Shown here in pieces: positions 5,446-15,183 of a stretch of DNA of 64,000 bases (within the stretch, counting starts at the first letter, position 1; every line of letters starts with the position of its first letter). This stretch comes from Mesobacillus persicus (GTDB taxonomy: Bacteria > Bacillota > Bacilli > Bacillales > Cytobacillaceae): the NCBI RefSeq assembly GCF_900109925.1, contig NZ_FOBW01000002.1:1-64000 (forward strand). Reading direction: 5' to 3'. The translations under genes were made by a program, and so were the position numbers. The notes beneath the pieces are model-generated. The model had not been told where the DNA came from. It searched no databases and saw only the letters and a program-made list of their open reading frames with translations.

Positions 5446-8400
5446 TTATAAGCCACATTTTAATTGTGCATTACAGTTTGTACATGTATTACAGCCACCA
5501 ATATCTTTAACTTCTCCTTTTCGACAAACAGGGCATGTATCTCCTACCTCTGAGCCGATGGTTACATTTGTCGAGCGAAGTTCGTTAATGGTATCAACTA
5601 AAACGACATGCTGTTTAGACTTTTCTTTCTTTGCTTCCTTATCTTCTTCAAAGCTATTTTCCTCAGCTTTTAAAGTTAGGACCTGCGAATCACGGGACCC
5701 GTCAACATAGACTGTTCCACCCTTTGCTCCACCTTTGTAAAGACGCTCGTACACTTTTTCAACCTGTTCAACACTGTACCCTTTAGGTGCGTTGACGGTC
5801 TTACTGATGGAGCTGTCAATCCAACGTTGGATAATGCATTGCACATCCGCGTGGGCTTCAGGTGCAAGTTCCATAGCTGCAACGAACCAGTTTGGAAGGT
5901 TTTCTGCATCTGCTTCTGGATGTGCATCTAGGTATTCCTGAACAATATCTGCTTTTACTTCAATAAATTTACCAAGACGGCCGCTTCGGAAGTAAGAAAA
6001 GGAAAAATATGGTTCAAGTCCTGTAGAGACCCCAACCATGGTCCCCGTGGATCCCGTGGGAGCAACAGTTAGCAAATGTGAATTACGAACTCCATTTTCG
6101 AGTATGGATTCACGCACATCTTCAGGCATTTTTTTCATAAATCCTGTGTTTATGAACGCATTTCTTAAACGATTTGTTTCTTCAGCAGTTTCCCCATCCA
6201 AGAACGGGAAGCTTCCTTTTTCTTTTGCAAGCTCAACTGAAGCTCGATAAGCTGTTGTCGCAATGGTTTCAAAAACTTTATCAACTAGTTCATTTCCTTT
6301 TTCAGAACCATATTCTGTTTCACAGTAAATGAGAAGATCGTGAAGGCCCATCACACCAAGACCAATTCGACGCTCCCCAAGTGCTTGCTTTTTATTTTCG
6401 GCAAGGAAGTAAGGAGTGGCATCGATGACATTATCCTGCATCCTAATCCCTATTTCTACTGTACGTTTTAATTTTTCAAGGTTAACAGTCTTTGTTTCCT
6501 TATCGGCCATTTCCGCAAGGTTAACGGCTGCAAGATTACAAACACTATATGGTGCTAGTGGTTGCTCGCCACAAGGGTTGGTTGCTACAACTTTTTGACC
6601 ATATGCTTGTGCGTTTGTCATGTCATTGGCGTTGTCGATATAGAAAATCCCTGGTTCTGCTGAGTAAGTTGCACAGATATTGACTAGGTTCCAAAGTTCT
6701 TTTGCTTTGATTTTTTTGTATGTGCGTACTTTATAGCCAAGCTTTTCCCATTCGCGAACATCGCCAACTTTATGCCATTCTTCATTGTACGTTTTCATGG
6801 TTTCAGCATCATACGATTCAACATCCGGGAAACGCAGATCAAACTCCGCATCGTTCTCCACGGCATCCATAAATTCCTTTGTTAAGGTAATTGAAATATT
6901 AGCTCCTGTTAGGAATTCCGAATTGTGGACCGTATAATTACCGCCTGTCTCAAGCTTTTCTTCAGCATTCCTGATAATTTCCGCACTGAAACCACCGTAG
7001 CCTGGAATGTTTTTATAATTTATAATCCCTTGATACATTGCCTCTTCTTGCAAGGTCAACGGAGTGAACTTTAGTTTTTCTTTCGCATGTTTCTTAATCG
7101 TTTCGTCTTGAGTATTTTCGATCAAGAAACGAAGGATTCTTGGATTTTGCATTTTTGAAATAATGAATTCAATGATGTCTGGATGCCACGTACCTACCGT
7201 TCCTTTCGGAATATTTCGCTGCGCATTTAAGCAGCCGGACTAGACTATATCATCACCCTCAGCTTGATCTGTTAGGGGTCGGGCGCTTATGAGAGTTTAT
7301 TGTTGGGACTCACTCTCTAGTCGTTTAACCTTCGCCATCACCTAAGCCCGATGACGCTTGGCTGCAGATTGTCCAATACTAGCAATTTTTAGAGCCGTCA
7401 CGCCCACCGTTTCCAGTCACGTTGTGGCTTGCTAGCCTCTAAGGATTTTCCCGCAATTCACCCGATTTACTAATCGTTCATTTCTGAACGATGCGGACTA
7501 GTGCATCTTTTAATCCGCTAACATTATCATTTGAGCGCCACGCTGATTGTTACTAGCTAAGTTTTAGCCGGCTAGGGCATTTCTGCCTAGCTCTCATACT
7601 TTCATATGAGGTCAGACTATATCATCAAAGGATTTACCCCTCTGTCTCGTGCCCCAAAAGACCGTTACCGAATCTATGGTTTACTTTCACCTTAAAGATC
7701 ACTTCTTAGGTGATTTCAATAGTCGTTGAACGTTCATCTTCGTTTCCAAAGATGCTTCGCTGCTGATTGCCCAATCCTTATCATTTTTGAACCATCACGC
7801 TCACCGTTACCGGTCACGTTGTGGTTGATATGGCTCTAAGGGTGTTCCAGCAATTCACGAGATTTTAATCCCGCCATGGCGTATTTAACGGGATCCCCCC
7901 TGCTCAACTAGATGAGTCAACTTCGCAATATCATCCAGCCAAGATACTGAGCCAGACGATTTTCCGTTAACACCTTTAGCAAGCGTATTTCGTGGTCTAA
8001 GCGTCGAACCATTCGTTCCGACTCCACCACCGCGGCTCATGATTTCCATCACTTGCTTGCGGTGTTCCGAGATGCCTTCACGAGAATCTTGAACAAAAGG
8101 CATCACGTAACAATTAAAGTAGGTCACGTCGGTATCTGCGCCTGCTCCGTAAAGAACGCGTCCTGCTGGAATGAAGTTTAAGCTTGATAATTCTTGATAA
8201 AACTTTTCAAACCATTCCTTGCGTTTTTCTTCTGTTTTCTCAACTGAAGCTAAGCCCGTTGCATTTCGTTTCGCAATCTGCTCATAGAACACTTCTAATG
8301 GTTTTTCAATCACATCGAGTGATTTATGGATGATTCCAGTTTTCGCTTCTTCGGGGTCATCAAGGACGCCGCGGAACTCTTCATCCACCAAAACCTTTGC

Positions 8401-8676
8401 CGTTTTTGATTCCCAATCAATGTCAAGAATAAACCCGAGGCCTCTTGCAGGAAATTTCGGATCTTCTTTAATCGTAAGAACGACAAAATCTCCCTCACCT
8501 AAGGTTACTTTCTCTGTGTCCTTAAATGTATAACGATCCAGCATGACAAGTCTGGATACCCCTTTATGGGTTGTCTTCATATCAGGGGTAATTGGATGAA
8601 CCTGCGGAAACAAACGGATGTCCTTGTTCAGATTCTCAATATTAATATTCATTTTTTGGCCTAGCTCAACTGTCAT
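5446..8676 (-). CDS. nrdJ: B12-dependent ribonucleotide reductase, split by two group I introns
   Basis: Class II (adenosylcobalamin) reductase making deoxyribonucleotides. The gene has three exons: 8676-7888, 7542-7513 (30 nt, coding RGAQMIMLAD) and 7188-5446. Joined, they restore the family sequence GGSR-RGAQMIMLAD-WHPDI and give 853 residues, normal for Bacillus NrdJ. Visible motifs are the redox cysteines (FNCYV in exon 1, YSVCNL in exon 3), NPCGE with the thiyl-radical Cys and Glu, and a Cys-rich tail (CPVC, CNTCTNC, KCGL). The start is ATG 8676, 8 nt after GGGAG; GTG 8682 is too close to it. Unspliced RNA stops at once, because each intron begins with in-frame TAA. It is not a pseudogene if the introns splice. 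Upstream NrdR boxes suggest NrdR control. Confidence 0.93.
7189..7512 (-). ncRNA. Group I intron 2 in nrdJ (324 nt)
   Basis: Read on the minus strand it shows the four conserved group I core elements: P (AATTGCGGGAA), Q (ACAATCTGCAG), R (TTAAACGACTA) and S (GATATAGTCTAGTCC). The 5' exon end GCGGAT pairs with the internal guide GTCCGC (P1, 6 bp) with the required U.G at the splice site. The intron's last base is G, followed by exon TGGCAT. It starts with in-frame TAA. There is no endonuclease ORF. It is clearly related to intron 1, for example in the shared CCACAACGTGAC block. Confidence 0.93.
7543..7887 (-). ncRNA. Group I intron 1 in nrdJ (345 nt)
   Basis: On the minus strand it carries P (AATTGCTGGAA), Q (GCAATCAGCAG), R (TTCAACGACTA) and S (GATATAGTCTGACC). 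The exon end GATCCCGT pairs over 8 bp with guide GCGGGATT (P1), with U.G at the splice site. The six bases just before the guide (GCCATG) pair fully with the 3' exon CGTGGC (P10). The last intron base is G. The first codon is in-frame TAA. No endonuclease gene is present. Confidence 0.94.
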
Positions 8677-8799
8677 GATCACATCTCCCTCTAGTAAAAT
8701 TCAGTAATACCGTCCAGTTTTTACAAGGCTGATAGATTTAGCGTTGATTCTGGATGTACTTACGAATTACTCATACATTATCATATTAAAAGACATTAA

Positions 8800-14851: not shown

Positions 14852-15006
14852 TTCACCTGAAAGTTTACCCTTTTCAAGGCTTTCCCCTTTGGTGGCTCCC
14901 TCGATGTGGAGCACTCTCCAGAGTTGCGTCAAACAAGTGTTCTTTTGCCTGAGAGATTCACATAAATGCTTGCTCCTTCGGCGCTACGATTGTAGTCTCT
15001 CCCCTT
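14840..15006 (-). promoter_or_regulatory. Tandem glycine riboswitch (gcvT leader)
   Basis: Two glycine aptamers in series on the minus strand. The first has GCGCCGAAGGAGCAAGC and ATCTCTCAGGCAAAAGAAC. The second has ACTCTGGAGAG, CCACCAAAGGGGAAAGCC and ACTTTCAGGTGAAAGG. A short linker (GACGCA) joins them. This is the typical Bacillus gcv arrangement. Confidence 0.96.
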
Positions 15007-15183
15007 GCCATCATCCGCAATTATAAATTTGTCAATTTAAGGGCATGCTATAAGATAACACCAAATAATCAGCTATTTCGATTTTGCTATTGTAGTAAAT
15101 TTCAAAACATTCAAATCTACTTTCATCCTATCATTATTAAGGTAGTTTCGGCAATATATTTTAACACTAAAGGAGTGGTCACC

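Follow-up and report, generated by a model that had tools for sequence, protein, structure and literature searches.

Organization of the nrdJ locus

On a 498-kb contig of a 4.6-Mb genome, the window (the whole 64-kb stretch of DNA that was analysed) carries on its minus strand nrdJ, the gene of a class II, B12-dependent ribonucleotide reductase, arranged as three exons and two group I introns:

7888..8682, minus strand: nrdJ exon 1; NF005991 profile positions 2-263, 506 bits
8682 (GTG) and 8676 (ATG), minus strand: exon 1 starts; the ATG gives the 853-codon total
7543..7887, minus strand: intron 1, group I, site A, 345 nt; RF00028 77.9 bits, complete helices
7895-7888 with 7874-7867, minus strand: intron 1 P1, exon side with guide
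7880-7875 with 7542-7537, minus strand: intron 1 P10
7862-7856 with 7651-7645, minus strand: intron 1 P3
7724-7720 with 7619-7615, minus strand: intron 1 P7
7513..7542, minus strand: micro-exon, 30 nt, RGAQMIMLAD; read from the sequence, supplies profile positions 264-273
7189..7512, minus strand: intron 2, group I, site B, 324 nt; RF00028 61.8 bits, complete helices
7518-7513 with 7498-7493, minus strand: intron 2 P1, exon side with guide
7507-7503 with 7186-7182, minus strand: intron 2 P10
7492-7485 with 7480-7473, minus strand: intron 2 P2
7465-7459 with 7285-7279, minus strand: intron 2 P3
7322-7318 with 7247-7243, minus strand: intron 2 P7
7478..7507, minus strand: HNH endonuclease gene remnant in intron 2; inspection against the L152 site-B protein, and alignment
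5446..7188, minus strand: nrdJ exon 3 with stop codon; NF005991 profile positions 274-858, 1161 bits

Exon 1 meets intron 1 at 7888/7887 (...GGA TCC CGT^TAA), where its open frame (7885-8682) stops at the UAA of the intron, and the last base of intron 1 is the G at 7543. The codons of the micro-exon (7542-7513) are CGT GGC GCT CAA ATG ATA ATG TTA GCG GAT; intron 2 extends from 7512 (TAA...) to 7189 (G), and exon 3 opens TGG CAT CCA. An in-frame UAA is the first codon of each intron. The earlier note had claimed two group I introns with exactly these junctions, each ending in G and opening with an in-frame UAA, and the sequence as we read it, together with Rfam scores above the cut-off, bears it out.

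Counted from the ATG at 8676, the exons supply 263+10+580 = 853 codons, the same number as in the uninterrupted protein of relative L004. Searched apart with the equivalog profile NF005991 (cut-off 854 bits), exon 3 alone exceeds the cut-off at 1161 bits and exon 1 alone scores 506; the profile gap between exon 1 (to 263) and exon 3 (from 274) is ten residues, exactly the micro-exon. These lengths agree with the 853-residue joined protein containing RGAQMIMLAD that was proposed earlier.

The list of open reading frames holds none of at least 60 aa inside either nrdJ intron of the window, so neither carries the endonuclease gene that would mark it as a mobile intron. By inspection, the HNH remnant in intron 2 reads DALVRIVQK-stop, which resembles the end of this gene in site-B introns of full length; the remnant and the guide overlap. 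Elsewhere in the window, a glycine riboswitch aptamer (14927-15014, minus strand, 63.5 bits) is ordinary.

Group I identity and RNA structure

A search of both strands of the 64 kb with RF00028 (cut-off 50 bits) gave 77.9 bits at 7959-7593 and 61.8 bits at 7522-7219, so that the covariance-model check put forward in the earlier note comes out positive for both intervals. The core pairs are complete in intron 1 (P3 7/7, P4 7/7, P7 5/5) and in intron 2 (P3 7/7, P4 6/6, P7 5/5). P1 has 8 bp in intron 1 and 6 bp in intron 2, with a U.G pair at the splice site and a terminal G in both introns; the P1 partner of intron 1 is GAUCCCGU and its P10 partner CGUGGC (6 bp), while intron 2 has GCGGAU as its P1 partner and a 5-bp P10 with GCAUC, starting at the third base of exon 3. 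The two P1 helices and the 6-bp P10 of intron 1 had been predicted, and hold on checking of the pairing. The micro-exon contributes its first 6 nt to P10 of intron 1 and its last 6 nt to P1 of intron 2; since the other 18 of its 30 bases lie between the two pairing zones, both ribozymes could presumably fold on one precursor.

Pairs were counted in alignments of short introns only. Among 21 short site-B introns (20 of the 35 in the family sample plus that of L037), 99.3% of cells are paired and nine pairs are changed on both sides; slid structures reach 31-47% paired, and 0 of 500 shuffles is as high. The corresponding values for nine short site-A introns (of 18) are 98.7%, five pairs changed on both sides and 32-48% for slid structures; here 47 of 500 shuffles attain the count of pairs changed on both sides. 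Further standard pair types do not rise above shuffles in either alignment (197/500 and 361/500). Informative variation is almost absent from P1, P3, P4 and P7 of site A, and P1 of site B is invariant; these helices are therefore supported by being conserved and complete rather than by covariation. In a folding program that cannot form the P3/P7 pseudoknot, the 720-nt precursor is more stable than all 20 of its shuffles (z -4.35), and the best fold from this program joins arms of one intron to arms of the other. Judged by sequence and covariance model, both nrdJ inserts are group I introns, for which guanosine-dependent splicing is predicted.

Distribution among relatives

Of 151 family genomes sampled, 145 gave a match and 143 have an orthologous nrdJ; G083 (partial match) and G140 (remote match) were left out of the 143. 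The gene is interrupted in 83 of these and is a single uninterrupted piece in 59; L207, a truncated contig, was counted as uninterrupted. Sites, numbered by codons of the 853-residue protein, are distributed as follows:

Site A, between codons 263 and 264: 18 of 143 genomes
Shifted site between A and A', between codons 264 and 265: 1 genome (L155)
Site A', between codons 265 and 266: 16 of 143 genomes
Site B, between codons 273 and 274: 35 of 143 genomes
Site C, between codons 480 and 481: 33 of 143 genomes
Site D, between codons 652 and 653: 25 of 143 genomes

At these sites 43 genes have one insert, 30 have two, seven have three and one (L205) has four; the other two interrupted genes (L179 and L180) have a sole insert of 2.7 kb at codon 460. 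Sites were assigned by hand from the junctions in L155 (between A and A'), L190 and L191 (B), and L177 and L194 (D); the site data of L124 were entered from the window, and L129, L130 and L182 were counted as D by the 3' junction, the 5' junction being offset by an alignment gap. The pair of A and B occurs in 13 of the 143 genomes and in 8 of 25 genera. The earlier note had called a ten-codon exon between two such introns unusual, which stands only in a relative sense: the same pair recurs in these 13 genomes, and short exons are in print in the available portions of two papers (PMC11878797, PMC10136302).

Eighty named loci divide at this segment into 59 uninterrupted, eight A', six B, two A, four A+B and one A'+B (with a 24-nt exon); the set is biased against exon 3 interruptions because exon 3 was the query. 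Neobacillus terrae C11 and Robertmurraya kyonggiensis NB22 are among the named carriers, and Bacillus sp. PS06 has the 24-nt exon. The named doubles L014, L033, L039 and L058 are L138, L149, L152 and L134 of the sample, and are names rather than extra counts. Beyond the family, the 699-nt query matches in 92 of 299 order-level genomes, some family members included, part of these matches being introns of other genes. Among 20 regions picked by hand, which yield no frequency, five (L235-L238 and L254) have the 30-nt arrangement and L239, from the same genome as L037, the 24-nt one. Because the same junctions recur in other genomes, a chance or assembly artefact is ruled out.

Other inserts of several kinds were noticed. 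Those at site C measure 176-311 nt, or as much as 1.2 kb when they contain an ORF (about 311 aa), cut NPCG before E, and have U before them and G at their end (e.g. L163, L167, L187 and L198). RF00028 gave no match at the site in four of four loci tested, and the full-length ORF matched no Pfam family; on the Rfam result we dropped a group I assignment and refer to them as intron-like inserts of unproven class. At site D, three genomes were scored with Rfam, above the cut-off in G005 and G003 and below it in G006. The 2.6-2.7-kb inserts of L179 and L180 (codon 460), L201 (482) and L204 (526), with ORFs of 587-610 aa, look by inspection like putative group II introns.

Outside nrdJ, the source genome has a group I-like intron (L003, on contig C22; 33.9 bits, below the cut-off) in the 3' part of its tmRNA gene, with an RF00023 match of 155.5 bits adjoining it, and L088, L091 and L093 have similar tmRNA-gene introns by eye. 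Group I introns interrupting tmRNA genes are known. Group I introns also lie at the 3' end of flagellin genes in L243 and L245, and probably in L241, L242, L244, L250 and L252; several loci of this type have two group I introns about 455 nt apart, and the identity of the gene was established for L243 and L245. The accessible part of PMC3984707 mentions introns in flagellin genes of a thermophilic Bacillus.

Conservation of the coding sequence and proposed splicing

In 59 of the 80 named relatives exactly 30 nt separate the exon-1 and exon-3 matches, and the segment of uninterrupted relatives reads RGAQMIM followed by LAD, LSD, LTD, QAD or QSD. In Thermotoga maritima NrdJ (1xje), the aligned counterpart of VEQGGSRRGAQMIMLADWHPDI is VKQGSRRRGALMGILNINHPDI. 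Sites C and D split the gene between NPCG and EQ and between APTG and STG; these we take to be active-site motifs.

The codons that pair with the guides are strictly kept in interrupted genes: all 18 site-A genes have TCC-CGT and all 35 site-B genes have GCG-GAT. Of the 56 uninterrupted named loci, by comparison, 11 have TCC and 11 have GCG. L040, L050 and L070 mapped badly and were taken out of these codon counts by name; in the synonymous-identity analysis described below they were subject to its distance filter only.

At codon 269 (window 7527-7525), an isoleucine codon outside both pairing zones, ATA is used by 23 of the 35 site-B carriers; two of the 56 uninterrupted named loci have it, as do two of the 27 family loci that lack an intron at this place. 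This bias is suggested to be a co-conversion footprint or part of an endonuclease target.

Relative to congener L126, dN/dS is 0.015 for codons 61-263 and 0.029 for codons 274-470; both large exons look to be under purifying selection. A class I reductase alpha and beta pair is encoded on another contig of the same genome, so that nrdJ is not the sole reductase and loss of NrdJ might be tolerated; the low dN/dS indicates that nrdJ has been retained despite the class I pair. These values bear on the reading that the gene is broken, its inserts staying unspliced and exons 1 and 3 being remnants or separate polypeptides. Such a reading would account for the in-frame stops that open both introns and would be compatible with the presence of the class I enzyme, but the dN/dS of 0.015-0.029 in both exons, the junctions and guides kept in 18 site-A and 35 site-B genes, and the intact ribozyme helices make it very improbable.

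We conclude, with a probability of roughly 90%, that nrdJ is one working gene whose transcript contains two group I introns around a ten-codon exon and is spliced in frame. This conclusion draws on the anatomy of the locus, the intron family, the pairing, the conservation and the distribution; general knowledge of group I introns supplies the steps of splicing, the in-frame joining and the role of UAA. The guide of each intron would pair with the end of its own upstream exon (GAUCCCGU for intron 1, GCGGAU for intron 2), leaving a U.G pair at the splice site; free guanosine would cut at the 5' splice site; the freed exon end, aided by P10, would attack after the terminal G of the intron; and exons 1, 2 and 3 would be joined in frame to encode the 853-residue NrdJ. 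By standing at the first codon of each intron, UAA may keep ribosomes off the ribozymes. In the available part of a phage study, eight of nine genes were spliced, four of them only in infected cells (PMC11878797), so a sound-looking intron need not self-splice in vitro.

Inclusion or skipping of the micro-exon

The two introns might also act as one: a single large ribozyme, made up of the 5' portion of intron 1 together with the 3' portion of intron 2, could join exon 1 to exon 3. Skipping of this kind would delete ten conserved residues in frame and lower the amount of active NrdJ, perhaps as a form of regulation. The P7 strands are the same in both introns (GACUA and UAGUC), and the micro-exon is a whole number of codons; moreover, the portions available of two papers report skipping of the exons of Twort orf142 and Coxiella 23S rRNA (PMC10136302) and of an exon of the SIOphi phage terminase gene (PMC11878797). 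The other pairings argue against it. Exon 1 pairs with the guide of intron 2 at three of six positions, the P10 of intron 1 pairs with exon 3 in register at three of six, and a hybrid P3 of the two introns has five of seven pairs, with two mismatches; in the same partial text, skipping is suppressed by differing P1, P10, P9a and P9.2 elements (PMC10136302). We consider it unlikely that skipping gives a real second product.

Guides that do not recognize each other's exons, together with the P3 mismatch, would instead make inclusion dominant over skipping. Because the guides and the P3 helices differ between the introns, we predict that the micro-exon is mainly included; because P7 is compatible and the folding program pairs arms across the introns, some skipping may still occur.

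Lineages and possible joint spread of the two introns

The best match of each site-A intron is the site-A intron of another genome (18/18), and that of each site-B intron another genome's site-B intron (36/36, L037 included). By these matches introns 1 and 2 belong to two separate lineages at sites 30 bp apart. The A lineage also holds the best matches of two introns found at other positions, that at site A' in L037 and the shifted one in L155, so that it occupies three positions within a span of 6 nt. In full-length introns the encoded protein is of the LAGLIDADG type at A and of the HNH type at B (one of each was scanned); the copies in the source genome have lost the endonucleases of these full-length relatives.

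Phages were considered as a direct source. Among 50,697 phage records, blastn found 61 with matches to intron 2 and 205 with matches to intron 1, none with one place covering at least 80% of the query; the one 23-base pattern tried for intron 2 had no exact occurrence in viral contigs, and the one 22-base pattern tried for intron 1 occurred in 11, where the upstream frames are not nrdJ-like by eye. As these searches gave no full-length phage match, phages were rejected as the direct source.

Across the 143 genomes, A and B occur together 13 times against 4.4 expected (Fisher p 5.6e-6); the within-genus expectation, from shuffled labels, is 7.75 (p=0.002). A' and B are together in no genome of the sample (3.84 expected, p 0.004), yet L037 has both. 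No association was found for A-C, B-C, A-D or C-D in the 143 genomes, and that of B-D is weak (Fisher p 0.02; within genera 0.13). These p values are uncorrected for the number of site pairs, and genus is the one level of kinship controlled for. Within the 13 doubles, the distances between copies of intron 1 are correlated with those between copies of intron 2 (Mantel r 0.39, p 0.003; 0.38, p 0.003 in a partial test on host distance), and neither intron tracks host-gene distance (r 0.08 and 0.16). An intron of endonuclease size is found at A only in seven doubles, at B only in three, at both in none and at neither in three. Synonymous codon identity over codons 258-286 is 0.60-0.67 among doubles and 0.34-0.57 among uninterrupted named loci.

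These observations raise the question of whether the pair moves as a composite mobile unit, which would add to, rather than replace, the reading of nrdJ as a working, spliced gene. As the sites are 30 bp apart, homing by the endonuclease of either intron would copy both introns and the micro-exon. The excess of A+B overall and within genera beside the unlinked pairs A-C, B-C, A-D and C-D, the correlated distances of two introns that do not follow the host gene, the distribution of endonuclease-sized introns and the higher synonymous identity among doubles are all consistent with such a unit. However, that none of the 13 doubles has endonuclease-sized introns at both sites is weak evidence, the guides demand part of the codon identity, and genus alone was controlled for. 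In the source genome itself, intron 2 is nearest (95.7%) to that of congener L126, which is without intron 1; codons 268-290 are identical between the two, whereas codons 262-264 and 267, adjoining site A, differ. The simplest reading of this pattern is that B would have arrived first and then A, or that A was lost in the congener, that is, stepwise arrival or loss rather than joint transfer. We therefore advance the composite unit tentatively. The fuller proposal, that the unit spread through the Bacillales with one endonuclease moving both introns, and that the guide and P3 differences were kept because they protect the micro-exon from skipping, is somewhat doubtful.

Comparison with known systems

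Group I introns have been described in conserved parts of nrdE of Bacillus species, cyanobacteria and the phages Twort and SPbeta, some with homing endonucleases, according to the accessible parts of two papers (PMC3984707, PMC3653736); these are class I genes, unlike the class II nrdJ of the present study. For class II nrdJ, full-text searches of open-licence PMC papers listed none that concerns group I introns in this gene; nrdJ may, however, be among the reductases for which RNRdb mentions over 100 curated group I introns.

The closest parallel is the reductase large-subunit gene of the Bacillus phage phiNIT1 (L213). There, as in nrdJ, the same conserved strand of the large subunit is cut by two group I introns with a small exon between them; in the portion of the paper available, it splices in vitro and the small exon is present in cDNA (PMC11878797). 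By RF00028 its introns score 94 and 42.7 bits, the second below the cut-off of 50. It differs from nrdJ in belonging to a phage and to another reductase class. The intron sites differ too: judged by eye, that of the first phiNIT1 intron is roughly two codons upstream of site A and that of the second roughly ten downstream of site B. Blastn similarity between its introns and those of nrdJ is limited to short core stretches.

Twort orf142 (a Staphylococcus phage gene) and Coxiella burnetii 23S rRNA likewise have two group I introns around a tiny exon, of 23 nt and 34 nt respectively; these are other genes, for which the text available reports skipping (PMC10136302). The Twort introns are highly similar to each other according to the same source, whereas the nrdJ pair comes from different lineages.

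Tiny exons between group I introns are thus already in print, as far as the consulted parts of PMC11878797 and PMC10136302 go; the apparent novelty is that a micro-exon between twin introns recurs in a chromosomal gene of a class II reductase. With nrdJ interrupted in 83 of 143 genomes, gene finders unaware of introns may split or miss it in many Bacillales genomes. The combinations A, A', B, A+B and A'+B found in nrdJ provide a natural test set both for the avoidance of skipping and for the spread of linked introns.
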